DNA from: an uncultured Spirochaetia bacterium | GTDB lineage: Bacteria > Spirochaetota > Spirochaetia > CAKZLE01 | Length of the DNA stretch: 64,000 bases | Assembly: GCA_937125225.1 (NCBI GenBank) | Contig: CAKZLE010000031.1 | Coordinates: 1 to 64,000 of the forward strand | Direction: 5' to 3' | Part shown: positions 12,706 through 52,569 of the stretch, in pieces | Layout of the letters: the number at the start of each line of letters is the position of its first letter | Numbering within the stretch: position 1 is the first letter of the stretch | Notes under the pieces: model-generated | The model's input: the letters and a program-made list of their open reading frames with translations, nothing else | Told to the model about the DNA's origin: nothing | Databases searched by the model: none | Program-made: the position numbers and the translations under genes

Positions 12706-14109
12706 TCAGCGATTATAGGCTTCCCAGAATCTCTGACTGACAGGGGTCTGGGTATCATCCCAGAGCTCTCTTTGGTGCAATAACTCCTGTCTCAAATCAT
12801 CAAGGAGCTCTTTATGATCTTCATGTTCAGCTAGATCGTTCTTCTCAAAAGGATCATCTTCAATATTGAAGAGTTGGGTATGCTTTCCGTGTTCTCCAGC
12901 ATATTCGATAAGTTTATAGCCTCCCCTCTTTACTCCTCGCAGTAGCTCTGCATAGGCGAAGTAGAGCGTATCCCTTATGTCATCCTTTAGCATCTCCTCA
13001 CCTGAGATCTGAGAATAGAGGCTATTCCCCTCGATCCCATCAGGTTTATCGATAGCTAATGCATCACAGATCGTTGGGAAGATATCAAGAAGGTAGCAGG
13101 GATCTGAACAAAGCTTGTTCGCTTTGATCTGTGGACCAGAGAAGATCAGAGGTACTCTCACACTGTGTTCATAGGCACTCTGCTTACCGAACAAGCCATG
13201 TTGCCCAAGAGCTAGACCGTTATCACCAGCTAAGATGATAATGGAGTTCTCATACTCCCCGATACTCTTCAGCTTTTCTATGATCCTACCAATCTGATCA
13301 TCAAGATGAGTGATCATGCCATAGTACTCTGCTAGATGTGTCCTCACCTCATGCTCAGTCCTCGGATAGGGGGCAAGTACCTCGTCTCTCACATTTCTGA
13401 TACCATATTCAAACAGATGCTCTTCTCTGAAATTCTCAGGCAAGCTCACCGTCTCAGGTTCATACATCTTCAGGTACTTCTCAGGCATGGTCCTCGGATC
13501 ATGCGGTGCCATGAATGCTGTATAGAGGAAAAAGGGGTTATCGCCTCTCTGGCTATCAAGCCAGTTCACCGCATAGTCTGCGAAAAGATTACTTGAATGC
13601 TTTCCCGGATTAATATGATCTGAGATCATATTATTGACGACCCGTGAATGAAAGGCATCAGTTGTATAGGGTACTGAATAATCATATTCACCACTCGGAT
13701 CAAAGTCACATGCAGGAATATTCCAATGATCCCACATACCACCGAAGAAGATCTCCCCGCCGGAGGTGAAACTTCTCGCATAAGCTGCAGGACTATTATG
13801 CCACTTGCCTATACCACAGGTATCATACCCTGCCTTCTGAAGAACCTCTCCCAATAGGATGTGGTCTTCGGGGATATAGGAGCCGTTGTCTGCAAGATGA
13901 AAAAGGGTCTTACCCGTATGGATCATAGCTCTAGAAGGCATACAGACAGCCCCACAGGTACCACCAGGAATATGAGCATTGGTAAAGGCTACCCCGCTCG
14001 ACACTAGTAGATCCATATAAGGAGTCTTTACTTCTTTGTTCCCCAAAGCTCCAATGGTATCAAACCGCTGATCATCGGTCAGTATGAAAACGATATTAGG
14101 TTTCTTCAT
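12706..14109 (-). CDS. Formylglycine-dependent sulfatase (family S1), cytosolic, linked to TTT system 2
   Basis: A 467-residue type I sulfatase. It begins KKPNIVFILTDDQRFDT (metal-binding DD) and carries the maturation motif Cys56-Met-Pro-Ser-Arg60 (C-x-P-x-R), followed by HTGKTLF. GIGKWHN, AGDNGLALGQHGLFGK and the C-terminal FNIEDDPFEKNDLAEH are the expected sulfatase blocks. There is no signal peptide, so it acts in the cytoplasm and needs a cytosolic FGE or anSME, which is not in this window. It is the last gene of the tctC2-tctB2-tctA2 unit (22 bases after tctA2), suggesting that the imported anion is a small organosulfate. Confidence 0.93.
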   Translation of the reverse strand: MKKPNIVFILTDDQRFDTIGALGNKEVKTPYMDLLVSSGVAFTNAHIPGGTCGAVCMPSRAMIHTGKTLFHLADNGSYIPEDHILLGEVLQKAGYDTCGIGKWHNSPAAYARSFTSGGEIFFGGMWDHWNIPACDFDPSGEYDYSVPYTTDAFHSRVVNNMISDHINPGKHSSNLFADYAVNWLDSQRGDNPFFLYTAFMAPHDPRTMPEKYLKMYEPETVSLPENFREEHLFEYGIRNVRDEVLAPYPRTEHEVRTHLAEYYGMITHLDDQIGRIIEKLKSIGEYENSIIILAGDNGLALGQHGLFGKQSAYEHSVRVPLIFSGPQIKANKLCSDPCYLLDIFPTICDALAIDKPDGIEGNSLYSQISGEEMLKDDIRDTLYFAYAELLRGVKRGGYKLIEYAGEHGKHTQLFNIEDDPFEKNDLAEHEDHKELLDDLRQELLHQRELWDDTQTPVSQRFWEAYNR

Positions 14110-29951: not shown

Positions 29952-30584
29952 ATGAAAGTAGTTGCCTTCAACGGAAGTCCAAATAGAGAGGGAAATACCT
30001 TTTCAGCGATCAAGCTGGTTGCTGAGGTCTTAGCAGAGAACGGTATAGAGGTAGAGATCATCCATGTCGGTAACAAGACCATCAGAGGTTGTCTTGCCTG
30101 TAACAGGTGCGTAAAGAATCAGGATGAGAGATGCATCCTTGATGATGAGGTCAATGTCTGGATACAGAAGATCAAAGATGCTGATGGGGTCATCCTAGGT
30201 TCCCCTACTCACTTCTCAGCGATCGGTGGGACGATGAAATCATTTCTTGATCGTGCCTTCTACGTCGCAGGAGTCAATGGGAATCTCTTCAGACATAAAG
30301 TCGGAGCCTCAGTTGTGGCGGTAAGAAGATCAGGAGGGGTTCCAACCTTCAATCAGCTCAATAACTATCTCAACTATTGTGAGATGATCCTTCCAACTTC
30401 CAACTACTGGAACGTGATCCATGGCACACGCCCTGGAGACACGGTCAACGACCTAGAAGGGGTTCAGATCATGAGAGTACTAGGTAAAAATATGGCTATG
30501 GTCTTAGCACAGCGAGAAGCAACCAAAGAGCTCATGGAAGAGAATCCAAAGGTCAGGAAGAGACTGACAAACTTCATCCGTTAG
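29952..30584 (+). CDS. Iron-sulfur flavoprotein / NADPH-dependent FMN reductase family
   Basis: A 210-residue flavodoxin-fold protein. VVAFNGSPNREGNTFSAIKL gives the FMN phosphate loop; GCLACNRCVKNQDERC supplies C-x2-C-x2-C-x7-C, the compact cluster-binding motif of archaeal-type iron-sulfur flavoproteins (Isf), and GSPTHFSAIGGTMKSFLDR is the second FMN segment. It would transfer electrons between ferredoxin-like donors and small acceptors in the cytoplasm. AGGAGAG precedes the ATG. It converges with a polyferredoxin gene, overlapping by four bases. Confidence 0.88.
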   Translation: MKVVAFNGSPNREGNTFSAIKLVAEVLAENGIEVEIIHVGNKTIRGCLACNRCVKNQDERCILDDEVNVWIQKIKDADGVILGSPTHFSAIGGTMKSFLDRAFYVAGVNGNLFRHKVGASVVAVRRSGGVPTFNQLNNYLNYCEMILPTSNYWNVIHGTRPGDTVNDLEGVQIMRVLGKNMAMVLAQREATKELMEENPKVRKRLTNFIR

Positions 30585-31222
30585 GATCTCTGTACGGAAC
30601 AAGCATCTTTCGGGCAGCATTCAATACACTCATAGCACATCAGACATTCATGGTGTATGATCTCTCTCTTGCCATCTTCAGCGGTGATGATGGCATCTGA
30701 GGGACACTCTTTCTGACAGATCCCACAGGAGATGCAACCCTCTTTATCTATATCGACGACTGTTTTCGCAGATCTAGAACTGATACTGAGTATCGTGCCA
30801 AAGGGGCAGACATGTCTATGCCAGAAGGACTCCTCAAAGAAGAGTGTCACTATCACCGAAAGGATGATCACATAGAGAAGAACATTGATCTTTATTTGGA
30901 ATATTCTCATAGAGACCATAGCGATCACGAACAGTGCAAGGAATGCATATCGCACCCAAGTCTTTGAAAGAAAAGCCGGAGTCTTAAGTCGTCTGATATG
31001 AAGCTTTCGATAGATCCAGTCGATAGGTCTAAATAGGGTATTCATCGGACAGATCCATCCACAGAAGAAGCGACCGAACCGGAGGGAGATAATGACCCCT
31101 AACAAGAATACGCCTAACCACATCTGCAGTTTTTGCTGAGAGGTAAGGATTATGACGGCAAGAAGAGCAGGAATCTCTGTGATCAATCGATAATATGCAT
31201 AGGTTCTCTTTTGTTTACCCAT
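30581..31222 (-). CDS. NapH/CcoG-type membrane polyferredoxin
   Basis: A 213-residue membrane protein with about four helices, the membrane motifs FFCGWICPMNTL and RHVCPFGTIL (C-x3-CP type) and two C-terminal cytosolic [4Fe-4S] sites: CISCGICQKECPSDAI and CLMCYECIECCPKDA. Such proteins pass electrons to or from quinones or periplasmic reductases. No partner reductase is adjacent; the convergent iron-sulfur flavoprotein or the Tat-flavoprotein module at 36-40 kb are possible partners, unproven. Confidence 0.88.
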   Translation of the reverse strand: MGKQKRTYAYYRLITEIPALLAVIILTSQQKLQMWLGVFLLGVIISLRFGRFFCGWICPMNTLFRPIDWIYRKLHIRRLKTPAFLSKTWVRYAFLALFVIAMVSMRIFQIKINVLLYVIILSVIVTLFFEESFWHRHVCPFGTILSISSRSAKTVVDIDKEGCISCGICQKECPSDAIITAEDGKREIIHHECLMCYECIECCPKDACSVQRS

Positions 31223-36110: not shown

Positions 36111-36287
36111 CTAATTTACTTTTTTCTCAGCCTCGGCCTCTGACTTGATATCCTTGGCCTCTTTCATCCCCATCTCGAACTCTTTACGAGCTTTTCCGAT
36201 GCTCCGTGCGAACTTAGGGAGAGCTGATGCCCCGAATAACAGGATAACTACTCCACTGATAATAATAATCTCTGGTGTACCGATCAT
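36111..36287 (-). CDS. tatA: Twin-arginine translocase subunit TatA
   Basis: A 58-residue protein below the usual annotation length cutoff. It has one N-terminal helix (EIIIISGVVILLFGASALP), the FG-x-SALPKFARSIGKA hinge and amphipathic helix characteristic of TatA/E, and a charged tail (KEFEMGMKEAKDIKSEAEAE). TatA oligomerises to open the path for folded proteins. Its ATG overlaps the TGA of the upstream tatB-like gene by 4 bases, and it ends the module that starts at 40505. Confidence 0.93.
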   Translation of the reverse strand: MIGTPEIIIISGVVILLFGASALPKFARSIGKARKEFEMGMKEAKDIKSEAEAEKKVN

Positions 36288-36571
36288 CTTACGACTCCTT
36301 TGATACGTCTCTTCGTACCGTTTTTGATCAAATCACTCTTCATACCAGATCTCACACTGGAATCCGAGCCTTTGATCTCTATCTCTTTGGCTACTGTATC
36401 GACCTCTTTCTCAAAGTCGCTGTAGGTCCTCTTTACCGCATTGATCTGTTTCATGATCTGTCCATAGATCTGCCCGATCTTCCTGACGATAGCAGGAAGC
36501 TCTTTCGGATTGATCAGTACAAGGATCACGATCACTAATGTTATAGTCTCTGATATACCGAAATCGAACAT
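36284..36571 (-). CDS. tatB: Twin-arginine translocase subunit TatB-like
   Basis: A 95-residue TatA/B-family protein: an N-terminal helix FDFGISETITLVIVILVLI, the hinge NPKELPAIVRKIGQIYGQIM, and a longer charged helical tail than the TatA next to it. TatB-like length and the NPKELP motif suggest the receptor role with TatC. ATG 36571 overlaps the tatC stop. Confidence 0.88.
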   Translation of the reverse strand: MFDFGISETITLVIVILVLINPKELPAIVRKIGQIYGQIMKQINAVKRTYSDFEKEVDTVAKEIEIKGSDSSVRSGMKSDLIKNGTKRRIKGVVR

Positions 36572-37308
36572 CACTCTTCTCCAAATTTAAAGATCTTCGC
36601 CACAAGTATGGTAAGGAAGTAAAGACCGGTCATCGGTAACGCCAGGCCCACCTGTGTGACGAAATCAGGAGGGGTGATGATAGCCGCTATGAAGAAGAAC
36701 AGCACGATCACATATCGTCCTGCCAACAACAGGGTCTTCCGTTTCACCGTATTGAGCATGAGCAGCATCTCGAGGACTATTGGTAGCTGAAAAACCACGA
36801 GGGCCATCAACATGAACTGCAGAATATAGAAGATATTATCTCCAAAATTCAGCAGCATCCCCGTATTCTCGGGAATGAATCCCTTACTCGTCAAAAATGT
36901 GATCGAGACGGGGATGATGCTGTAATAGCTATAGAAGAAACTTGCTACGATGAAGATGAAACTGACAACCATCGTGATGATGATTATCCTCTTCTCCTTC
37001 TTCAGGAGACCCGGGAATATGAACGCTAAAAAGTTCACCAGATGTACCGGGCTCGAGATGATGAAACCGGCTAATGCCGAGATCTTCATTCGTACAAGGA
37101 AGCCCTCTGCGAAGGTAGTCACATAGAGGATATCATCCCCTTCTGAGACCAACCCCATCAGGGGTTCAAAAAGAAAGTCTATGATGTAATCGTAGAGACT
37201 CAACGAGATAGCGAACCCTGCAATGAGCGCAATGATCGATATGACCACACAGCGCCTGAGTTCGGTCAAGTGTGCAAGTAACGGCATCACATCATGATTC
37301 TCTTTCAT
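36571..37308 (-). CDS. tatC: Twin-arginine translocase subunit TatC
   Basis: A 245-residue protein with six helices. HLTELRRCVVISIIALIAGF is the TatC N-terminal signature, LMGLVSEGDDILYVTTFAEGF the first periplasmic loop and FQLPIVLEMLLMLNTV the helix 5 region. TatC recognises twin-arginine signal peptides. AGGAAGAG precedes the ATG. It follows the Tat-signal flavoprotein gene by 9 bases and is co-transcribed with it. Confidence 0.96.
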   Translation of the reverse strand: MKENHDVMPLLAHLTELRRCVVISIIALIAGFAISLSLYDYIIDFLFEPLMGLVSEGDDILYVTTFAEGFLVRMKISALAGFIISSPVHLVNFLAFIFPGLLKKEKRIIIITMVVSFIFIVASFFYSYYSIIPVSITFLTSKGFIPENTGMLLNFGDNIFYILQFMLMALVVFQLPIVLEMLLMLNTVKRKTLLLAGRYVIVLFFFIAAIITPPDFVTQVGLALPMTGLYFLTILVAKIFKFGEE

Positions 37309-37317
37309 CTTCTCTTC

Positions 37318-39114
37318 CTATTGAGCAGGCCAAGCATCAAAGAGCTGCTTCTCTAGTCTCATCTGTCCATCCGTACCTTTATAGATATTGATCCATGCCT
37401 GCCAGTTCTTATAATCTACATCCGGATAGTCTAACCGATAATGACTGCATCTACTTTCAGTACGCATCAGAGAGGCTCTCAACTTCATCTCAGCACTCAC
37501 GATCATATTGGCTGTCTCATGTGCGAGTCTCAGTTCATGGAGGTTCGCAGCCCTTAGCATCGGTAAGTGGTGATCACGAAGTTCTTCTATATAGGCAAGA
37601 GCCGCCTGCATCAGATTCTCCTTCTTGATATAGAGGATGAAGTTCGGGATCATGATCCCCTGTAGTGTCTGAGTCACCCACGCAGGACCATATCCAGAAT
37701 CTCTATTCAAGGGAGCGAGCATCGATTCTTTTATACTGCTGATCGTGCTCGTAGATATACTCGGTTGACTTATCCCCTTCACATATTCTGCAGCTGCCTC
37801 AGATACGATAGCACCCTGGACTGCAGATCCTGCAAGAGAAGAACCGATTTGTGTATAGATTCCTCCAGCCATATAAGAACCTAGCGCATCACCGGCTGCA
37901 TAGAGCCCAGGTATATTGGATTCACCCTTCTCATTGATCGGAACGAGTCCCTCTGACTTATGGATCGCCATACCGGCAGAGGCACCACCGGAGGAGGCAC
38001 TTGCTGCCATACCCGGAGCACCACCCTCATCTCCACTGGGAGGTCCTCCATCTTCACCTGGAGGTGGACCACTAGGTCTCTCTCCGTCGTCCTCTCCACT
38101 AGGTGCACCACTCGGAGCACCGCTTTCTTCCATCTCTCGGTCAAACCCGTCAGGAACATAGGGTCCACCTTCAGCTGAAACAGAACCAGGGCCACTTGAT
38201 ACGGGATTACCCAATACATAGGCCGAATAGTTACCTTCCATACCCAGATCATGATGAACATCGATAGTGTTAGTACTCGGAGCCATATCGAACATACCAT
38301 GCCAGCCGTCATAACAGGCAGCAGGATTATCCATTGAGCCTGAATGGCCATCATTCCACTCTTTTCCCGTAACCTTCGCACCGATCTCATAGGCCATGAC
38401 GGTACCGTCATGGGTCAGATCACAGATGGGGAAACCATTAGGTTTGAAACCACCTGCTCCGGTACACAGGACTACTGATTTTGCCTTGAAGATGTGGATC
38501 TTCGTCTCATCGAGACTGAAGCCTGCAGCTCCGGCTATCTTGCCATTCTCCTTGATCAGGTGAGTGATCATGATCCTCTCCATTACTGGGATATTCCGTT
38601 CATCGATCGGCTTGGAGAATGCTTTATTGTAGAGAGGTGAATCAAAGAATCCCCACTCTTTCAAATCATTGACTCTTTCCAGTGAATGTTCTGCCATCTG
38701 TCTCGTATAGACTGGATTATTCGTATTGATTGCTGAAGCTGTGACAGTATCGGTAAACTCATCAAGGCTCATACTCTCTTTTGCGGCATCATAAGCAAAG
38801 ATACCCTTTGCGAAAGGGGTCTGACCGGATGAACCGAGACGACCTTTCGAGACCATGAGGACCTTTGCTCCTGCATCATGTCCCTTGACTGCTGCGAAGA
38901 GTCCAGCCATTCCTCCACCGATGACGAGGATATCTGTCTCTGCTATTGAAGACGAGAAATTCTCTAGGTCGATCTCACGTTCGTTCGTGTTCCACTGAAC
39001 CTTCATACCTATGGTGGTAAGTGCTGCTGCCCCTACTACACCACCGGCAAGCCCGAGGAACTGTCTTCTCGACAGCCCCCTCTTCTCTTTATCTTGTTTC
39101 TCTTTATTACTCAT
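37318..39114 (-). CDS. Tat-exported FAD-dependent oxidoreductase (SdhA/FrdA/AprA superfamily)
   Basis: A 598-residue flavoprotein. A Tat signal is obvious: Ser15-Arg16-Arg17-Gln-Phe-Leu-Gly followed by a hydrophobic stretch. DILVIGGGMAGLFAAV (61-76) is the Rossmann FAD site, SSGQTPFAKGIFAY the covalent/isoalloxazine region and IPGLYAAGDALGSYMAGG (401-418) the C-terminal FAD motif. A low-complexity Gly/Pro/Ser/Glu insertion at about 330-380 interrupts the fold where the capping domain ends. It belongs to the fumarate-reductase/APS-reductase-type superfamily, but the substrate is not evident. It lies between a haem-b-like membrane protein (8-base overlap) and tatC. Confidence 0.9.
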   Translation of the reverse strand: MSNKEKQDKEKRGLSRRQFLGLAGGVVGAAALTTIGMKVQWNTNEREIDLENFSSSIAETDILVIGGGMAGLFAAVKGHDAGAKVLMVSKGRLGSSGQTPFAKGIFAYDAAKESMSLDEFTDTVTASAINTNNPVYTRQMAEHSLERVNDLKEWGFFDSPLYNKAFSKPIDERNIPVMERIMITHLIKENGKIAGAAGFSLDETKIHIFKAKSVVLCTGAGGFKPNGFPICDLTHDGTVMAYEIGAKVTGKEWNDGHSGSMDNPAACYDGWHGMFDMAPSTNTIDVHHDLGMEGNYSAYVLGNPVSSGPGSVSAEGGPYVPDGFDREMEESGAPSGAPSGEDDGERPSGPPPGEDGGPPSGDEGGAPGMAASASSGGASAGMAIHKSEGLVPINEKGESNIPGLYAAGDALGSYMAGGIYTQIGSSLAGSAVQGAIVSEAAAEYVKGISQPSISTSTISSIKESMLAPLNRDSGYGPAWVTQTLQGIMIPNFILYIKKENLMQAALAYIEELRDHHLPMLRAANLHELRLAHETANMIVSAEMKLRASLMRTESRCSHYRLDYPDVDYKNWQAWINIYKGTDGQMRLEKQLFDAWPAQ

Positions 39115-39751
39115 TGTTCCCTCCCTTCAGCTGTGGCTGAAGAAAATAGAGCCGAAGCAGGAAGAATATCCCGGTTGCTGCCATGATGATCATATAGGTA
39201 GACATGATCACATCCGTATGTCTGCCAAGATCGATCGCATGCCAGGTAGCGAGTATCACGAAGATGATCGAAAGGAGCCCGTGAGAGAGTCTCCATGCTC
39301 TGTAGGAGATCTTCATCCTCTTTCTGAGCATCGACGTGATCCCCAGGAGGACCATCAATGCCATGGCGATGAGTCCGATAATGATCCCTGAACTTTGAAA
39401 AGTCGTTATCATAGTCATGAAGGCATCGTAGGGGGTCACCCCTGCCTCGAAATATCGTGGTACTACGACGAGAAACGGATGAAGCATGAGGACAGGTATG
39501 AAAACATACCCGATAACCTTATGCTTCCCGATTACTTTTGTGAACTTGTTTCCCTTGAGGGTCACCTTGTTAATACGTGTCAGGTAGAACTGACCAAGCA
39601 TCAGAAAGAAGGCGCCGATCGTGAGAAATGAGATGCCATCTTTCAAGGTCGTCCTTTCTGGAAAATCTGCAAGAAACAGATAGAGAAAAGGTATGACTAG
39701 ATAGAACAATGCCCCGATCAGAAGATACGGTGTCCTTTTTTTTGTTTCCAT
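39107..39751 (-). CDS. Haem-b-like ferric-reductase-type membrane protein
   Basis: About 214 residues with six helices. Histidines sit in pairs in two helices: GKHKVIGYVFIPVLMLHPF and WRLSHGLLSIIFVILATWHA, with a further HAIDLGRH; this spacing fits bis-histidine b-type haem binding as in ferric-reductase-like domains. It would move electrons across the membrane to the exported flavoprotein. The start is taken at 39751 (GGGGGT upstream); an ATG at 39766 is an alternative that overlaps the ferredoxin stop. Confidence 0.82.
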   Translation of the reverse strand: METKKRTPYLLIGALFYLVIPFLYLFLADFPERTTLKDGISFLTIGAFFLMLGQFYLTRINKVTLKGNKFTKVIGKHKVIGYVFIPVLMLHPFLVVVPRYFEAGVTPYDAFMTMITTFQSSGIIIGLIAMALMVLLGITSMLRKRMKISYRAWRLSHGLLSIIFVILATWHAIDLGRHTDVIMSTYMIIMAATGIFFLLRLYFLQPQLKGGNNE

Positions 39752-39756
39752 ATTCT

Positions 39757-39972
39757 CTACCCCCATGATATTACTACTGGAATGGACTTCTCAGGAGCGA
39801 TCGTTATTGCATCGACTGGACAGTACATCCTACATAAGTGACAGATCTGGCAGTCAGCCGGATAGGCTATCACCGCCTTTCCTGTCTTCTCGTTAAGTCG
39901 TATCACGTCAGTGGGGCAGCTCTGAACACATGTCCCACAACCGATACAACCGCTTATACTATTGATTGACAT
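39757..39972 (-). CDS. 2[4Fe-4S] ferredoxin
   Basis: A 71-residue ferredoxin with two classic cluster motifs: CIGCGTCVQSCPTDVI and CQICHLCRMYCPVDAI (C-x2-C-x2-C-x3-C-P twice). Cytosolic, no signal. GGAAG lies before the ATG. It sits 11 bases after the LTxxQ-protein gene and just before the membrane protein, and would be the electron donor or entry subunit of the module. Confidence 0.93.
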   Translation of the reverse strand: MSINSISGCIGCGTCVQSCPTDVIRLNEKTGKAVIAYPADCQICHLCRMYCPVDAITIAPEKSIPVVISWG

Positions 39973-39983
39973 AGCTTACTTCC

Positions 39984-40505
39984 TTACTTTATCTCTTCTA
40001 ATCCATCTATCAACTGTGATAGAAGCTCAACAGGATCTAACATCTGAGGTCTTTCAGCGCTATTTCCTTCTGGTCTCTCAACACTCTTCCCTTGAGGTCT
40101 TTCTCCCTTTTCTCCTGCTGGTGGACCCTGCATCTGCATATTGAGTTCATTCTGTTCAGCTGTCAGGACCTTTGAGACCTTTGAAGCATAAGAGCTGATA
40201 TCAGCGTTGAGATCTTTCTGGATCTCACTCTTCCAGTCTTCAAGGATCACGATGATCTTCTCAGCCTGTTCAGAGGTCAGAGCAACATCAGCGTCCTTAT
40301 CAGGGATCATAACCAGGCTCTGAACCTTCATGAGGATCATTGCCTCTTCTGCAGGTTCAGGCAGGTTCTCTCCTGAAACCTGTTTCTCAACTTGTGGTCT
40401 TGTTGGTGGCTCTTCTTCCTGTTTTCCACCTGCAAAACATACTGCTGAAGAAAGCGCGAACATTATCATAGTCGTCAGTAGGATATATCTCTGTTTTACT
40501 CTCAT
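39984..40505 (-). CDS. Exported LTxxQ-motif (CpxP/Spy-like) protein with Pro/Gly/Glu-rich tail
   Basis: A 173-residue exported protein: signal RYILLTTMIMFALSSAVCFA, then GGKQEEE. Two LTxxQ motifs, LTSEQ at 76-80 and LTAEQ at 114-118, lie in predicted long helices, as in Spy/CpxP-type periplasmic proteins. A low-complexity stretch (about 126-153; QGPPAGEKGERPQGKSVERP) follows. The start at 40505 has GGAG seven bases upstream. It is the first gene of the Tat-flavoprotein operon. A metal-sensing or chaperone role is inferred only from the motif. Confidence 0.7.
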   Translation of the reverse strand: MRVKQRYILLTTMIMFALSSAVCFAGGKQEEEPPTRPQVEKQVSGENLPEPAEEAMILMKVQSLVMIPDKDADVALTSEQAEKIIVILEDWKSEIQKDLNADISSYASKVSKVLTAEQNELNMQMQGPPAGEKGERPQGKSVERPEGNSAERPQMLDPVELLSQLIDGLEEIK

Positions 40506-40574
40506 TGTTATCTCCATTCATATCTGGTTTTGATTTTCTATCTGATAAATCTAGACAATAAAAAGAGTTGTTAG

Positions 40575-40706: not shown

Positions 40707-42206
40707 TTAAAAACTGTCCTGCAGTAACCTGCTCAATTCCACTTCATGATTCCGTTCATATCCTGGAATATTCGGCAGACTCTTCTCCACATCCTGAAAG
40801 AGTAGGAGTTCATCAAGTTCCTGTGGAACCGAAGGTTTTGCGTACTCTTTAAAGCCATCGCAGTCGAAGGGTTCATTGTATCCTTCACTCTGATAGAAGG
40901 AGATTAGAGCATCTCTCATAGCTTTCGTATGTTTCGTATAGAAAGGATTCCCCGCCTTGTTATGGGTCTCTCCGGGATCTGTCTTCAGATCGAAGAGCCA
41001 CTCTTTCCTGTCCGGTACGGAGTATATATACTTGAACTCTTTCGATACAGCCATATAGAGGGCCTTATCGAAATGGTGATATTGACCGTAAATGATTTTT
41101 CTATCAATTTCATTTTCATAGATATCTTTCAAGCTCTCTCCACAGAAGTCCTGTTCATCCGTAATTTCTGCAAACTGCAGCATCGTGGGAAGAACATCCA
41201 TCAGTGATACCGGTTTTTCTGTAGAACAGCCCTTCGGTAGATCGGGATGAACCATGAGCATAGGGATTCGAGAAGCAGAATCGAGAAAGCATCGTTTCCC
41301 GACACAGTCATAATCTCCAAGCAACTCCCCATGGTCCGAGGAGAAAAGGATCAAGGTATTATCATAGAGCTTCTGTTCTTTGAGATATTCGAGGAGTCTG
41401 CCGATCTGGTAATCGATAAATGAGATTGTAGAATAGTAGGCTGCCTTCATCGTTCGAACTGCATGTTCTGATATACCCCGATCGAAATACTTGTATCGGT
41501 TCTGGAAGTCATTCCAATAGGTTGTCAGTTTCTCAGCTGTTATAGGATGTTTAGGAAGAGGCATCTCAGGCCCTCGATAGAGTTTATTCCAGGGTGTCGG
41601 AGTCTCGAATGGTGGATGAGGTTTTATGAAACTCGTCATAAGCATGAAGGGAGACTTCCTATCCCTTCTATCGAGAAAATCTATACTCTTATCAACGACC
41701 CAGGAGGAGTTATGAAGCTTTGCCGGTAGTTGTGAAGGTTGCGGGGTATAGTACATGTCACCACGAATCCCATGAGGATCATGGACATGACTATAGGAAT
41801 TCTCTTCTAGATAATGTGAATAGTCATCAGGTGATCCAAGTTCCTCACTGACATCTCTTGAGTCAAAGCCCCAGAGGATCGAGTTATCCTCCCCCTCGAA
41901 GGTGAAATGCATCTTCCCCACCCCGTGAGTCTGATACCCATGATCTGAAAGAATCTCCATGAAACTTCTGTTTCCTTCGGGCATGATGTCATTATATACA
42001 CAGTCGGTCTCATGAGGCATGAGTCCAGTGTGCATCGCATACCGTGCAGGGATACAGACTGGACAGGGAGAATAGGCTCTCTTAAAAGAGACTCCATTCC
42101 TTACCATTGAGTCTAGGGCTGGTGTCTTAATCACGGGATTCCCGTGAGCTGCAATCGTATCGAAACGTTGTTGATCTGTGAAGATCAATAAGATATTCTT
42201 CTGCAT
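40707..42206 (-). CDS. Formylglycine-dependent sulfatase, cytosolic, rhamnan locus (sulfatase A)
   Basis: A 499-residue family S1 sulfatase. QKNILLIFTDQQRFDT carries the metal Asp, the maturation motif is Cys51-Ile-Pro-Ala-Arg55, and GVGKMHF, FSSDHGELLGDYDCVGKRCF and FDLKTDPGETHN complete the fold. No signal peptide, so the substrate must be desulfated inside the cell. ATG 42206 is chosen (GGAGG 7 bases upstream) over an ATG two codons earlier. It overlaps the end of the GH78 rhamnosidase gene, so the two are coupled. Confidence 0.94.
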   Translation of the reverse strand: MQKNILLIFTDQQRFDTIAAHGNPVIKTPALDSMVRNGVSFKRAYSPCPVCIPARYAMHTGLMPHETDCVYNDIMPEGNRSFMEILSDHGYQTHGVGKMHFTFEGEDNSILWGFDSRDVSEELGSPDDYSHYLEENSYSHVHDPHGIRGDMYYTPQPSQLPAKLHNSSWVVDKSIDFLDRRDRKSPFMLMTSFIKPHPPFETPTPWNKLYRGPEMPLPKHPITAEKLTTYWNDFQNRYKYFDRGISEHAVRTMKAAYYSTISFIDYQIGRLLEYLKEQKLYDNTLILFSSDHGELLGDYDCVGKRCFLDSASRIPMLMVHPDLPKGCSTEKPVSLMDVLPTMLQFAEITDEQDFCGESLKDIYENEIDRKIIYGQYHHFDKALYMAVSKEFKYIYSVPDRKEWLFDLKTDPGETHNKAGNPFYTKHTKAMRDALISFYQSEGYNEPFDCDGFKEYAKPSVPQELDELLLFQDVEKSLPNIPGYERNHEVELSRLLQDSF

Positions 42207-42208
42207 TG

Positions 42209-44572
42209 TCATGCCTCCATAGCTATCTTCATCCGTATACAGTTCTTTTCAAATCGTTTGCCGTTTGGGAGCGTTATGATGAGTTCCAACTTATCAGGAT
42301 TTTTAATCGTCAAAATAGACTGTCCATTCTTTTCTCTCATATTCACATAGAGCGTACCCCCTCTAGTTACCACTGAACCTTGAATCTCCTTCACAGAAGT
42401 TCTTTGTGGTACAATAAGGATTCTGTCTGAAGTGATACTCTCAGGTCTCACACCTAGGAGTTCAGCGGTAAATTCATACAGGGGTATCGCTCCCCAGGCA
42501 TGACAATCACTTCTCTGAGTCACAGGGTCCTCGTTCCAGGTCGTGAGATTCATTTCAATCATCCTCTTCCACCCTCTCCATGGATCTTCATTCTCTCCAT
42601 AGATACCAGCTAAAGATAGAGACCGCATAAGAAAGAACGCCATTGAATAGGAAACTTGTGAAAGAGAATCGTCATGAATGGTCTTTCGCATCAGCTCTGC
42701 ACCACCCTTTCCTGTGATGGTTCCTGATAGGATTGCCCAGATCTGGGTATGCTGACTAAAATAGTGTGATCCTGGGCCGTCACTAAAAAGATTACGCTCA
42801 GTAGACCAACAGGTGCTCCTAATAATATCAAGCAATCTCTCCGACCGCTTTTCATACTCATGTGCCGTCCCAATACGTCCTAGAACTGTGCATAACTCTG
42901 CTGCCCTCTGGAGCCCCACAGCATAGAGTAGGTTTGTCACAGTCAGTGGACCATCAGAAGCAGCAGTCGGAACACCCCGACCAGCTCTCCATTGGTCTAC
43001 CCAGTCGACAAATTGCCAGTACTGGCTTGGTATATTATCCACCAGACCATCTTCATTGAGTTGTCTATCGAACCATCCAAGTACCGAATCGATCGTGGGG
43101 AGGTAACGCTTTACCAGATGCTCATCCCTGAAGTAGAGATAGTGATCAAAGACCATAAGGATCCAATAGATATTGAATCCTGGAATTATCTGAGATTCTA
43201 TCGAAGGGAATCTGCTCTGAAGCAGTCCTTGAGGTATCTGAGAGCAGTGATAGTCATGGATGGCCTTACGTGCCAGACGATCATCGCCTGAGATCTGATA
43301 GGTGAAGAGCATCTGCAAATAGGTATCCATAGTATATTGGAACTGTTCATAATAGGGACAATCCTCATAGCTCTCATGCATGCATCGCCTCAGGGTCCTG
43401 AGGCTGATATCCCACATGGAATTGAGATCGTTATCTGAGGAATTGAAATCTGCTTTGACTTCCAGCGGATAGCCGGTCTCCCGATAGGAGATATTACGGA
43501 ATAGGCAGGAATCATCTCCCACAGTGAGTGATACCCGTATGAACCTGAAGGTCTTGAACCAGAAAGGTTCATAGACTTCCGGATCTTCTTTGGTCCCTAC
43601 TCCTGCAAGTTCATATCGTGCTGAGTCTCCATAGAGAGAACCCTCTTCTGCATCATCTCGTATGCCCTTATCACGTTCCCAGGGAACTTCGATCGGTTCA
43701 TGCTCATAGCACTCTGCATAGAGGATCTCGACAATCGTCCCTTCTCCACCGGAGAATGTGAAGACCGGGAATCCAGTAGTCAATTCACCGGCATCTATCT
43801 CGATGGTCAATCGGGTCCCTGCCGGGATCAGGCAGCCGGGATCACATTCGGTATCGATTATCGCTTCTATCGAGGTTCCAGAGAGGATATCCCCTCGAGA
43901 TGCCACGATCTTCTTGAAAGTCTGTTCTCTTTCATAGAGAATCGGGATCTCACGTGGATAAAGCTGCCAGGGTTCGAGGACGCCGGTCGTAGTATCAACA
44001 AGATCATAGATACAACAGGATTCCCACTGAGAATCGTCATAGCCGAGCTCTTTCCAGCCGAACGGACGACAGGTACCGTCGACCTGTTCAGTACCACCGA
44101 GGAACATGGTATTGTACTCACCAGCCTTGAAGGAGATCGATTCATCCATCCGACAGAGCCAGGACTCATCACTGATGACAGTCCCAATAAGCTCATCCTG
44201 GTCATCATAGCAGGTTGCCTCGAAGATGAGCATACCATAGGGCGAACGGAATATTGAGAGATTCTCACCACTTATCGGGTAATGGAGAACCTTAACCGCA
44301 ATCTGATTGATCCCATCATTCAGGTATTCAGATATTTCAAGAGTCTCAAAGTACCAGCGGAAGTCTGATCCCTTACAGGGACCGAAGAGTACCATCTTAC
44401 CATTTACGTAGAGACGGTATCTGCTGTCTGCCGATATTCTCACGACACAACGTTCGAAACCTGTTTCGAAGAGAATCTGTTTCCTGAAATATAGGATCTC
44501 TGTCTCATCCGAGAATCTCTTCTCTTGATCCCTCCAGATGAAATTCCCTTCGAAAGGACGTTCTTTAACCAT
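42209..44572 (-). CDS. Alpha-L-rhamnosidase-like glycoside hydrolase (GH78), cytosolic
   Basis: A 787-residue protein of GH78 layout. An N-terminal beta-sandwich domain contains RISADSRYRLYVNGKMVLFG; then an (alpha/alpha)6 barrel holds YEDCPYYEQFQYTMDTYLQM, the GH78 catalytic-region signature (Asp/Glu cluster), and later DCHAWGAIPLYEFTAELLG. It would remove terminal alpha-L-rhamnose. No signal peptide is present, so it acts on imported oligosaccharides. Its ATG overlaps the end of the preceding permease gene by one base. Confidence 0.88.
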   Translation of the reverse strand: MVKERPFEGNFIWRDQEKRFSDETEILYFRKQILFETGFERCVVRISADSRYRLYVNGKMVLFGPCKGSDFRWYFETLEISEYLNDGINQIAVKVLHYPISGENLSIFRSPYGMLIFEATCYDDQDELIGTVISDESWLCRMDESISFKAGEYNTMFLGGTEQVDGTCRPFGWKELGYDDSQWESCCIYDLVDTTTGVLEPWQLYPREIPILYEREQTFKKIVASRGDILSGTSIEAIIDTECDPGCLIPAGTRLTIEIDAGELTTGFPVFTFSGGEGTIVEILYAECYEHEPIEVPWERDKGIRDDAEEGSLYGDSARYELAGVGTKEDPEVYEPFWFKTFRFIRVSLTVGDDSCLFRNISYRETGYPLEVKADFNSSDNDLNSMWDISLRTLRRCMHESYEDCPYYEQFQYTMDTYLQMLFTYQISGDDRLARKAIHDYHCSQIPQGLLQSRFPSIESQIIPGFNIYWILMVFDHYLYFRDEHLVKRYLPTIDSVLGWFDRQLNEDGLVDNIPSQYWQFVDWVDQWRAGRGVPTAASDGPLTVTNLLYAVGLQRAAELCTVLGRIGTAHEYEKRSERLLDIIRSTCWSTERNLFSDGPGSHYFSQHTQIWAILSGTITGKGGAELMRKTIHDDSLSQVSYSMAFFLMRSLSLAGIYGENEDPWRGWKRMIEMNLTTWNEDPVTQRSDCHAWGAIPLYEFTAELLGVRPESITSDRILIVPQRTSVKEIQGSVVTRGGTLYVNMREKNGQSILTIKNPDKLELIITLPNGKRFEKNCIRMKIAMEA

Positions 44573-49796: not shown

Positions 49797-51143
49797 TCAA
49801 AATGGGATCGCTCCTTTATCATCTACTTGATAATCCCATCTGCTCAGCAGTTCCGCTGAAGATAGGAACCCATCACCCAGTTCTCCTAATTCCTGATCCA
49901 GACGTTCATCTAGTCGTTTCAATAAAGTACTAGCTTCAGGCACGTCGATAAGATTGTTCAATTGGAAAGGATCTTCCCTGTTATCAAAGAGTAGCCAAGG
50001 ACCTTTCAGTTCCCTCACATAGGTATACCTTTGGGTCCTGATCCCTCGATACTCTCGTCCTCCTCGCTCGAAACACCAGTCGGCAAATGGAGAGTAACCG
50101 GCAAGCAGGACCGCATCACGACCAATATTCTCTTCTTGCTTGATAAGACGACTATAATCGATCCCTTCCACGGTGTCAGGGACCTCTTTACCACATATCC
50201 CTAGAAGAGTCGGCATAAGGTCAGGTGAAGCAATCAAAGCATCTTCCATTCGTGGTTCTAGTCCAGGTCCTTCGATCAGAAACGGGACGAGGATCGACTC
50301 CTCATAGGGTCGTTGTTTATTGATCCAGGGAGTATCAGGATCGCATTGTGATTCTATAGAATCCCCATGATCAGAGGTGAAGATAAGATAGGTATCCTCT
50401 TTGAGATCTTCTGCCCTTAATACCTCTTCCACTCTGGCAACACAATCATCCAAGGCACTGATATGGGCATAATAGCCATGGAGCTCATCCCTGCAGTTCG
50501 TATCAAGACCTGGATCAACATTATCCCTCAGGATAAAGGATTCCTTGTCGTAGAGATCAAGATACTCTTTGGGGGCGGTATCATAGGGATTATGGGGAGT
50601 TCCTAAAGAGAGGAAGAGGATGAAGGGTCTATTAATATCCTTACGACCTCTGAGCCAATCAAGCGCATCTGCTGTTTGGGCGAAAGCATCATAGCCCTCC
50701 CATCGCCTTCTCTCATCAGAGTCATTCGCATAATAATCTGACTCCCAATAGTCATGGGTACATTCGAGTACTTTCCAATAATCGAAGCCTTGATGACGCT
50801 CTGGCGGTATGAATTGATCTCTACCATGACCGTCGAGGTGCCATTTACCAACATAGGCTGTATCATAGCCATCTCTTTTAAGCACCTGAGCAATAGAGTT
50901 CCCGTTATCAGGAAGGCAGAGATCATTCATAAAAAGCCCATGAGTCAGGGGATACTGTCCTGTCAACAGACAGGCCCGGTATGGGGTACAGATCGGGCAG
51001 ACTGATATCATGTTGGTCATATTCACACTACGTTCTGCCATACCGTCAAGAAAGGGGGTCTTCACATTAGGGTCTCCGGCATAACCAGTTGCATGACCAC
51101 GCATCTGGTCTGTGAGGATAAACACGATATTCGGTCTACTCAT
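49797..51143 (-). CDS. Formylglycine-dependent sulfatase, cytosolic (sulfatase B)
   Basis: A 448-residue family S1 sulfatase: RPNIVFILTDQMRGHATG, maturation motif Cys52-Thr-Pro-Tyr-Arg56, VGKWHLDGHGRD, FTSDHGDSIESQ and the C-terminal FDNREDPFQLNNLID. No signal peptide. Its start overlaps the end of sulfatase C by 8 bases and it ends the operon driven from ABC system 2. Confidence 0.94.
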   Translation of the reverse strand: MSRPNIVFILTDQMRGHATGYAGDPNVKTPFLDGMAERSVNMTNMISVCPICTPYRACLLTGQYPLTHGLFMNDLCLPDNGNSIAQVLKRDGYDTAYVGKWHLDGHGRDQFIPPERHQGFDYWKVLECTHDYWESDYYANDSDERRRWEGYDAFAQTADALDWLRGRKDINRPFILFLSLGTPHNPYDTAPKEYLDLYDKESFILRDNVDPGLDTNCRDELHGYYAHISALDDCVARVEEVLRAEDLKEDTYLIFTSDHGDSIESQCDPDTPWINKQRPYEESILVPFLIEGPGLEPRMEDALIASPDLMPTLLGICGKEVPDTVEGIDYSRLIKQEENIGRDAVLLAGYSPFADWCFERGGREYRGIRTQRYTYVRELKGPWLLFDNREDPFQLNNLIDVPEASTLLKRLDERLDQELGELGDGFLSSAELLSRWDYQVDDKGAIPF

Positions 51144-52569
51144 CAGGGGACCCCTTTTGGTAATATACCGGTAAACTGCTCATATGGTTCAGAAGATCCT
51201 TCGTCATTTGGTTTCTTATATCGTCAAAGTTCTCATTGGAGAAGAGATCTTTCCATTCACGGGGATCTTTACTCAGATCATAGAATTCTCCACCGATGAT
51301 ATCATCTGCACGATACTCAGAAATTGTTGCCTTCCGTTCGAAGAAGATAATCAGCTTATAGTCCTTGTCCCTCCACATGAAGGAGGCCTCTCCTTTTCGT
51401 TCATGTAAAGCAGAGAAGGATCCGCTTCTCTGCCATGATGTATCCAGAAGGTCTGCACCCACGTTCTTCTTGGGGACCTTGATCCCTGAGAAGGTGAGGA
51501 GAGTGGTATACATATCGGTAAGTTCGGTATTCCTCTCGTCCACAGTTCCTTTGAACTGTTCAGGGAGCGCGCTCCCTGAGAGGATCATGGGAACTCTGAC
51601 ACTTGATTCATAGAGACAGTACTTGTTGAATCGGTAATAACGTTCTCCGAGCATCTCACCATGGTCTGAAAGATAGACGATCAGGGAATTCTCCAAAAGA
51701 CCTTTCTCTTTGAGTAGCTCCATCACCCTACCGAACATCGAATCGATCCAAGTACAGTTCGCTTTATACCGCAGAGTCATCTTCTTCCATTGATCACTGG
51801 AGGCCTCGCTCCAGAATGGGATATACATATCATTCCGATTGTTCCCTTCAGCATGAGGTGATACATCAATACCCCACGGAGGCTGTTCAGGAATCTCAAT
51901 ATCATCCTCATCATAGAGCTCTTCAAAGCCGGTCGGTACATTATGGCCTGCATGGGGTTTGAGATATGAGAGGTAGAGAAACAGTGGTCTCTCATCATCC
52001 CTTCTCTCAAGATAATCAAGACATTGTCTTGTCACCCATCCATCACGATGACAGATCTCATCGATCCCGCTCGTTCGTCCGAGATACCCGTTGTTGTTCT
52101 CTTCACCGGCACCATAATCAGCCGTCTCCTCACTGTAGAGTCGCTTCAGTTCAGGATCCTTATCAGCCATCATAACAGCACCGATCTCTGGACATTCCCC
52201 GATATAACGGGTCTCGAACCCCCTGGTTCCACATTCGATCTCCCAATGGGTCTTCCCGAATCCTGCAGTCTCATATCCGGCAGTACGATAGTGCTCTACG
52301 AGCGGGAGATTTGGAAGTCTGTCATCAGGGATACCCTCCTCGTTCCGCAGGACATCGATCTGATTAGGATAGAGCCCAAGCATCATCGAATTCCTGCTCG
52401 CGATACACATCGGGGCCTGACAGACCGTCTGGGAGAAGTGAACTCCTTCCTGCGATAGTCGATCAAGAGTAGGTGTTTTGGTCACCCCGTCGATGCAACT
52501 GAAGGCATCATGACGATGCTGATCGTCCATCAGGAATATGATATTGGGCTTTTCCGTATTGTTTTTCAT
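51136..52569 (-). CDS. Sulfatase with variant maturation motif C-x-A-S-R (sulfatase C)
   Basis: A 477-residue family S1 sulfatase: EKPNIIFLMDDQHRHDAFS, GFGKTHWEIE and YLSDHGEMLGERYYRFNKYC. The maturation site is Cys55-Ile-Ala-Ser-Arg59, so Pro is replaced by Ala; C/S-x-A-x-R sites are known to be handled by anaerobic radical-SAM maturases (anSME), less well by FGE. No signal peptide. It lies between the GH106-like enzyme and sulfatase B. Confidence 0.93.
   Translation of the reverse strand: MKNNTEKPNIIFLMDDQHRHDAFSCIDGVTKTPTLDRLSQEGVHFSQTVCQAPMCIASRNSMMLGLYPNQIDVLRNEEGIPDDRLPNLPLVEHYRTAGYETAGFGKTHWEIECGTRGFETRYIGECPEIGAVMMADKDPELKRLYSEETADYGAGEENNNGYLGRTSGIDEICHRDGWVTRQCLDYLERRDDERPLFLYLSYLKPHAGHNVPTGFEELYDEDDIEIPEQPPWGIDVSPHAEGNNRNDMYIPFWSEASSDQWKKMTLRYKANCTWIDSMFGRVMELLKEKGLLENSLIVYLSDHGEMLGERYYRFNKYCLYESSVRVPMILSGSALPEQFKGTVDERNTELTDMYTTLLTFSGIKVPKKNVGADLLDTSWQRSGSFSALHERKGEASFMWRDKDYKLIIFFERKATISEYRADDIIGGEFYDLSKDPREWKDLFSNENFDDIRNQMTKDLLNHMSSLPVYYQKGSPDE

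Follow-up and report, generated by a model that had tools for sequence, protein, structure and literature searches.

A seven-gene operon of a marine spirochaete, at 36111-40517 of the window (the whole 64,000-nucleotide stretch of DNA that was analysed), is read here with moderate confidence as encoding a self-sufficient extracytoplasmic reductase plus the machine that exports it. All seven open reading frames lie on the minus strand, and neighbours overlap by 4-10 bases or stand 9-11 bases apart, a spacing that suggests a single transcript. The seven consecutive genes described in an earlier note on this DNA are present, with open reading frames, spacing and Pfam/NCBIfam matches in agreement, except that the first gene has no Pfam match. 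When genomes were searched for the same gene order, six to seven of the genes were found to recur in that order in other spirochaete families, hence the operon is not a chance arrangement.

The first gene (39984..40517, minus strand) encodes an exported Gly/Pro-rich protein with two LTxxQ-like motifs and a signal peptide that ends in AVCFA, directly before GGKQEE; its start is probably the ATG at 40505, which was the start chosen in the earlier note and has a good GGAG before it. Two further spirochaete cassettes have orthologs of about 30% identity at this position, and a comparison with Pfam returned zero family matches even at E=1, so that the label "LTxxQ" expresses motif resemblance only. 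Sulfatase-like genes were seen in the window at 12706-14109, 40707-42212, 49797-51143 and 51136-52569 (one Pfam-confirmed), one of them directly before the operon on the same strand, and they adjoin sugar and tripartite tricarboxylate transport genes, which fits a marine polysaccharide degrader. The GC content of the operon is 0.469, compared with 0.446 for the window (4.4-kb windows 0.445, sd 0.011), a difference too small for argument.

The fourth gene (37318..39114, minus strand) encodes an FAD enzyme of the FrdA/SdhA/AprA superfamily, as judged from Pfam, NCBIfam, profile and fold comparisons, and the enzyme is predicted to be exported by Tat. Its twin-arginine signal SRRQFLGLAGGVVGAAAL (39013..39075, minus strand), which includes SRRQFLGLAGG, scores 22.7 bits with TIGR01409 (cut-off 16.7), and such a signal is recognisable in the flavoprotein of 75 of the best 80 of 151 relatives. 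The best solved relatives in the profile search are AprA (4e-32), Sdh1 (4e-29) and the alpha subunit of PAPS reductase (1e-24), and a fold search with the predicted structure (pLDDT 77, pTM 0.82) gives the same folds. The comparison with reductase references proposed in the earlier note thus yields an AprA/PAPS-reductase-like fold and speaks against fumarate reductase, since the positions of MHGSN-RLGGNSL (profile alignment with Sdh1, 7d6v) fall in MAGAIYTQIGSSL of the flavoprotein, where there is neither His nor Arg. Identity as a fumarate, succinate or aspartate-oxidase enzyme was rejected, as the scores are far under the curated cut-offs and the catalytic His/Arg segment is missing, and the replacement of this Sdh/Frd segment makes fumarate unlikely as the acceptor. 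The flavoprotein also falls below the curated AprA model TIGR02061 (71.2 bits, cut-off 641.75), and its middle region, on which a comparison of APS/PAPS-binding residues would depend, does not align in the profile comparison, and it was not filed as a member of AprAB or PAPS reductase. The cap region carries a Gly/Pro-rich low-complexity insert (residues ~325-372, window 38000-38140), of which residues 328-371 are predicted to be disordered; the insert occurs in the relatives aligned, with variable sequence. The tail of the LTxxQ-like neighbour resembles this insert.

Between these two genes lie those of the ferredoxin and the membrane protein. The 2[4Fe-4S] ferredoxin (39757..39972, minus strand; 71 aa; Pfam and NCBIfam matches) has no signal peptide and resembles the beta subunit of PAPS reductase, as its residues 1-60, the whole cluster region, match 8a8o_C in a profile search (E 5e-12). 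No signal peptide was found in the ferredoxins of the relatives inspected, and the few longer open reading frames have an internal start. The membrane protein (39107..39766, minus strand) is a di-haem b protein of ferric-reductase (MsrQ-like) fold, which matches PF01794 Ferric_reduct (E 1.2e-13); the histidines of each of the pairs His82/96 and His162/176 are 14 residues apart, as expected for two b haems, which bears out its earlier description as a bis-histidine membrane protein. A NapH-type membrane Fe-S protein (Fer4_5) is encoded elsewhere in the window (30581-31222, minus strand), unlinked and 5 kb from the operon.

Judged from its genes, the pair of ferredoxin and flavoprotein forms a marine module that crosses phyla. 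Scanning species genomes turned up 151 relatives, and the best 80 of these, at 59-80% identity, come from spirochaetes, Bacteroidota, Desulfobacterota, Rhodobacterales, Vibrionaceae, Campylobacterota and other phyla; many of the hosts are anaerobes or sulfate reducers. Among these 80 loci, the ferredoxin gene is found in 78 and the other two loci end at contig ends, and tatCBA adjoins the module in spirochaetes only, with tatC being present somewhere in the genome of all 20 module-bearing genomes examined. The membrane partner varies across the same best 80 of 151 relatives, being PF01794 alone (FRD) in 68, PF01794 with FAD- and NAD-binding domains after it (FRD-FNR) in five, NapH-type in two and lacking nearby in three. 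The five FRD-FNR loci are gammaproteobacterial (L144, L150, L155, L160 and L161), with the domains identified by Pfam scan in one and by length and sequence in the other four. In the loci L082-L161, neighbours in other phyla are often response regulators, histidine kinases, CotH, Lcl_C/DUF1566, VTC and DUF4956, and Cthe_2159 proteins and small Gly/Pro-rich or EF-hand-like secreted proteins also occur near the module; the recurring ones (two-component systems, CotH, Lcl_C/DUF1566, VTC, DUF4956 and Gly/Pro proteins) gave no substrate clue. On a plasmid carrying one relative, the annotation reads merely "FAD-binding protein", "4Fe-4S dicluster" and "ferric reductase-like".

In the mechanism that we propose, the flavoprotein and the small ferredoxin would assemble in the cytoplasm, folded and loaded with cofactors, as an alpha-beta unit resembling that of APS and PAPS reductases. 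The subunits of those reductases make up an alpha2beta2 complex, with the FAD being fed from the beta clusters (PMC10322725). The twin-arginine signal of the flavoprotein would then take both subunits through the cassette's TatABC, with the ferredoxin as a hitchhiker. Outside, electrons would pass from the di-haem membrane protein to the ferredoxin clusters and on to the FAD, which would reduce a soluble acceptor other than fumarate; in the variant of the source genome, the di-haem protein would probably receive its electrons from quinol. Co-export, by which the ferredoxin would relay electrons outside, is probable from homology and gene order: the membrane feed is exchanged, even for one expected to oxidise NAD(P)H itself, while the flavoprotein keeps its ferredoxin, which is therefore best placed as the second, co-exported subunit of the enzyme. 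What counts against co-export is the position of the FRD gene between the ferredoxin and flavoprotein genes in 68 loci.

The earlier note had drawn another path, in which a cytoplasmic ferredoxin feeds the membrane haem protein and the latter directly reduces the exported flavoprotein. The missing signal peptide of the ferredoxin and the adjacency of its gene to the membrane gene in those 68 loci would suit this path, which is nevertheless unlikely, because the ferredoxin gene is retained immediately upstream of the flavoprotein gene where the membrane protein is FRD-FNR, NapH-type or absent nearby. Its resemblance to the PAPS reductase beta subunit and its better conservation (70-87% identity in nearly all loci, against 25-68% for the membrane protein) likewise speak against this path. 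NapH proteins carry cytosol-facing clusters, which leaves room for a cytosolic ferredoxin in the NapH loci.

Less probable still is the reverse direction, in which the flavoprotein would be a periplasmic dehydrogenase that sends electrons via the ferredoxin and the haems to quinone. The SdhA/FrdA superfamily, to which the flavoprotein belongs, works in both directions, and a quinone-linked membrane haem protein could take up electrons. However, the FNR domains of the five gammaproteobacterial fusions point to electron flow outward from NAD(P)H, in a set-up like that of ferric reductases and NOX, and the many anaerobes and sulfate reducers among the hosts suit a reductase, though they are no proof of it.

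The three last genes of the operon encode the translocase. TatC (36571..37308, minus strand) exceeds the cut-off of TIGR00945 (136.4 bits, cut-off 132.7) and matches PF00902 (155.6), and TatA (36111..36287, minus strand) exceeds those of PF02416 (48.3 bits, cut-off 21) and TIGR01411 (54.1, cut-off 53.9). TatB (36284..36574, minus strand) has TIGR01410 as its best NCBIfam model (E 3e-9), at 37.3 with a cut-off of 56.5; it is of the right size, and every intact cassette has a gene for it between those of TatC and TatA. The claim of the earlier note that the only visible Tat cargo is encoded beside the tat genes was upheld at the scale of the source genome (3.43 Mb, 97% complete), in which the operon's tatC is the only copy and the operon's flavoprotein is the only match to TIGR01409 over the cut-off. 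A screen of the genome for DNA patterns encoding [ST]RRxFL gave at least 149 loose places and 53 tighter places, with codon variants late in the genome being covered by the tighter pattern together with TIGR01409, and none of the 30-odd other [ST]RRxFL sites that were fetched and translated was signal-like, these having a short frame, no hydrophobic stretch or a position inside a protein. The screen is one of HMM and motif rather than of a secretome, so that signals outside [ST]RRxFL may escape it, and TIGR01409 misses some genuine ones. As no other cargo is detectable in the source genome, we infer that its translocase is an accessory of the redox module.

The linkage is kept in relatives. 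Of 148 genomes of the class, only 35 contain tatC, and the sampled member of the same family has none. Close flavoprotein orthologs (71-76%) are found in five genomes, G023, G026, G129, G075 and G100. The gene order is Fd-FRD-Flav-TatCBA in G023, LTxxQ-Fd-Flav-TatCBA-NapH in G026, LTxxQ-Fd-Flav-TatCBA-NapH-FMN_bind in G100, where it is split over two contigs, and Fd-Flav-NapH, without tat, in G129. In G075 (L066 2005-5100), TatCBA accompanies a flavoprotein that lacks its first ~105 residues and with them the Tat signal, a truncation that is either real or an assembly error, and this genome has zero Tat signals over the cut-off. The cassette is also present in L082 (Sphaerochaetaceae), L085 (Pleomorphochaeta) and L091. 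No tatC other than the linked one exists in the genomes of the source, L082, L085, L091, G075 and G100, and dedication of Tat to its neighbour extends to L082, L085, L091 and G100, in which the flavoprotein has the sole Tat signal over the cut-off (the G100 gene being joined across contigs). Two cassette genomes, G023 and G026, hold a second tatC, hence exclusive dedication is not universal. A decaying module is seen in G367 (L201 9600-11543), in which the ferredoxin is intact, no tat genes adjoin, a deletion has fused the beginning of the membrane gene with the body of the flavoprotein gene and thereby removed the Tat signal, and the flavoprotein frame is broken; this genome keeps a different tatC beside another cargo.

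The origin of the cassette was approached by phylogenies of TatC and the flavoprotein, built quickly and with no bootstrapping. All eight TatCs from cassettes group in a single clade (SH-aLRT 100) that lies within a spirochaete TatC clade, and the spirochaete flavoproteins form, with one Omnitrophota MAG, one clade (99) inside a multi-phylum tree. Since the cassette TatCs are a single clade within spirochaete TatC, Tat was recruited once in spirochaetes and not imported with the module; import from another phylum is rejected on the TatC tree, and the module has no linked tat outside spirochaetes. The simplest reading of these trees is that the module came into spirochaetes from outside, took up a spirochaete tatCBA on one occasion and later shed these tat genes in lineages that have another Tat. 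Of the earlier suggestion of a mobile unit carrying its own export device, mobility draws some support from patchy occurrence and differing flanks, but neither a mobility gene nor a border or target site was found, with no integrase or transposase noticed around the operon, and arrival of Tat with the module from other phyla does not stand.

The association of Tat with neighbouring cargo is apparently more general among spirochaetes. Each of the 39 tatC-bearing spirochaete genomes has 0-5 Tat signals over the cut-off (median 1), compared with 10-13 in three module-bearing genomes of other phyla. Such a signal lies within 12 kb of 29 of 45 spirochaete tatC loci, and 30 of 57 signals have a tatC no further than 12 kb away, where ~0.4 would be expected under uniform placement, an expectation that ignores kinship among the genomes and a limit that was chosen after part of the data had been seen. 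Spirochaete Tat systems thus apparently serve few, neighbouring cargos. A second type of cassette comprises a Tat-signal Fe-S protein, an aldehyde ferredoxin oxidoreductase (AFOR_N/AFOR_C) and TatC-TatB-TatA ~4 kb downstream; its gene order was read in L081, L070 and L069, and G030, G043, G067 and G089 were assigned by position. Other cargos beside tatC are a NiFe hydrogenase small subunit (L080 9099-10007), a C_GCAxxG_C_C protein (L218 515-1330), an FMN_bind plus FAD_binding_2 enzyme (L071 4802-6859) and a distant Tat flavoprotein with its own ferredoxin (L065 6647-8923). That the operon's genes are an ordinary housekeeping tat operon merely adjoining redox genes, for which the unremarkable TatC itself and the additional tatC of two cassette genomes could be cited, is very improbable given the lack of any further over-cut-off signal in the source genome, the recurrence of the linkage across spirochaete families with a monophyletic cassette TatC, and the excess of signals near tatC.

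Tat is usually treated as a general exporter. In the source genome, and seemingly in many free-living spirochaetes, it looks instead like the accessory of a single enzyme. This would account for its patchy occurrence in them, and natural pairs of one exporter and one cargo would offer material for studying Tat recognition. The wider proposal, on which our confidence is evenly divided, is that the operon represents an undescribed exported AprAB-like reductase of many marine phyla, which would have an interchangeable membrane feed (haem, NAD(P)H-haem or Fe-S) and reduce a compound that is common outside the cell; in the spirochaetes, which largely lack general Tat export, it would have captured a translocase of its own, and spirochaete Tat systems generally would be accessories for one cargo each, gained and lost together with individual redox enzymes. 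No prior study of the operon or the flavin enzyme was found in the open-licence papers searched, and the conserved cross-phylum redox pair, its capture of a translocase and the spirochaete-wide Tat pattern seem to be new. The acceptor of a predicted extracellular reductase so widely shared in the sea is a directly testable question.

Several known systems share single traits with the operon. In MsrPQ, the periplasmic methionine sulfoxide reductase, a PF01794 di-haem membrane protein feeds a Tat-exported molybdoenzyme, and the spirochaete operon likewise has a PF01794 di-haem protein beside an enzyme with a Tat signal; it differs in having an FAD protein plus a ferredoxin and no molybdopterin MsrP gene. 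Membrane feeds of the NapH-like and MsrQ-like extracytosolic systems are reused in a modular manner, including with fumarate-reductase-like oxidoreductases, according to the available text of PMC8238504, in which these systems are defined by an FMN-binding flavinylated subunit and no description of the ferredoxin-flavoprotein pair was found; such a subunit is not encoded in the spirochaete operon, whereas the relative L067/G100 has FMN_bind. APS reductase AprAB and the PAPS reductase of Methanothermococcus thermolithotrophicus (1jnr, 8a8o; PMC10322725) share with the spirochaete pair an FAD alpha and a 2[4Fe-4S] beta subunit with sequence matches, in contrast to which the spirochaete pair has predicted export, a membrane electron feed and an unmatched cap with a Gly/Pro-rich insert; no sulfate-activation genes were recognised in the 64-kb window.

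With respect to the translocase, the closest parallel is TatAdCd of Bacillus subtilis, for which one cargo, PhoD, is known (PMC6708511); tatC loci and cargo genes have been described in Bacilli (PMC3827258). Both are Tat translocases linked to and serving one cargo, which is predicted from sequence for the spirochaete. However, TatAdCd is a second, minimal TatAC beside a general Tat and has a phosphodiesterase as cargo, whereas the spirochaete system is a TatABC and the only Tat of its genome, and its cargo, a redox module, brings a membrane electron feed of its own. Hitchhiker export by Tat is established for other enzymes, for example hydrogenases and PaoABC (PMC4273604), in which one signal peptide likewise serves a folded enzyme of several subunits, as co-export would require in the spirochaete; unlike in these, the spirochaete exporter is encoded in the operon of its own cargo.
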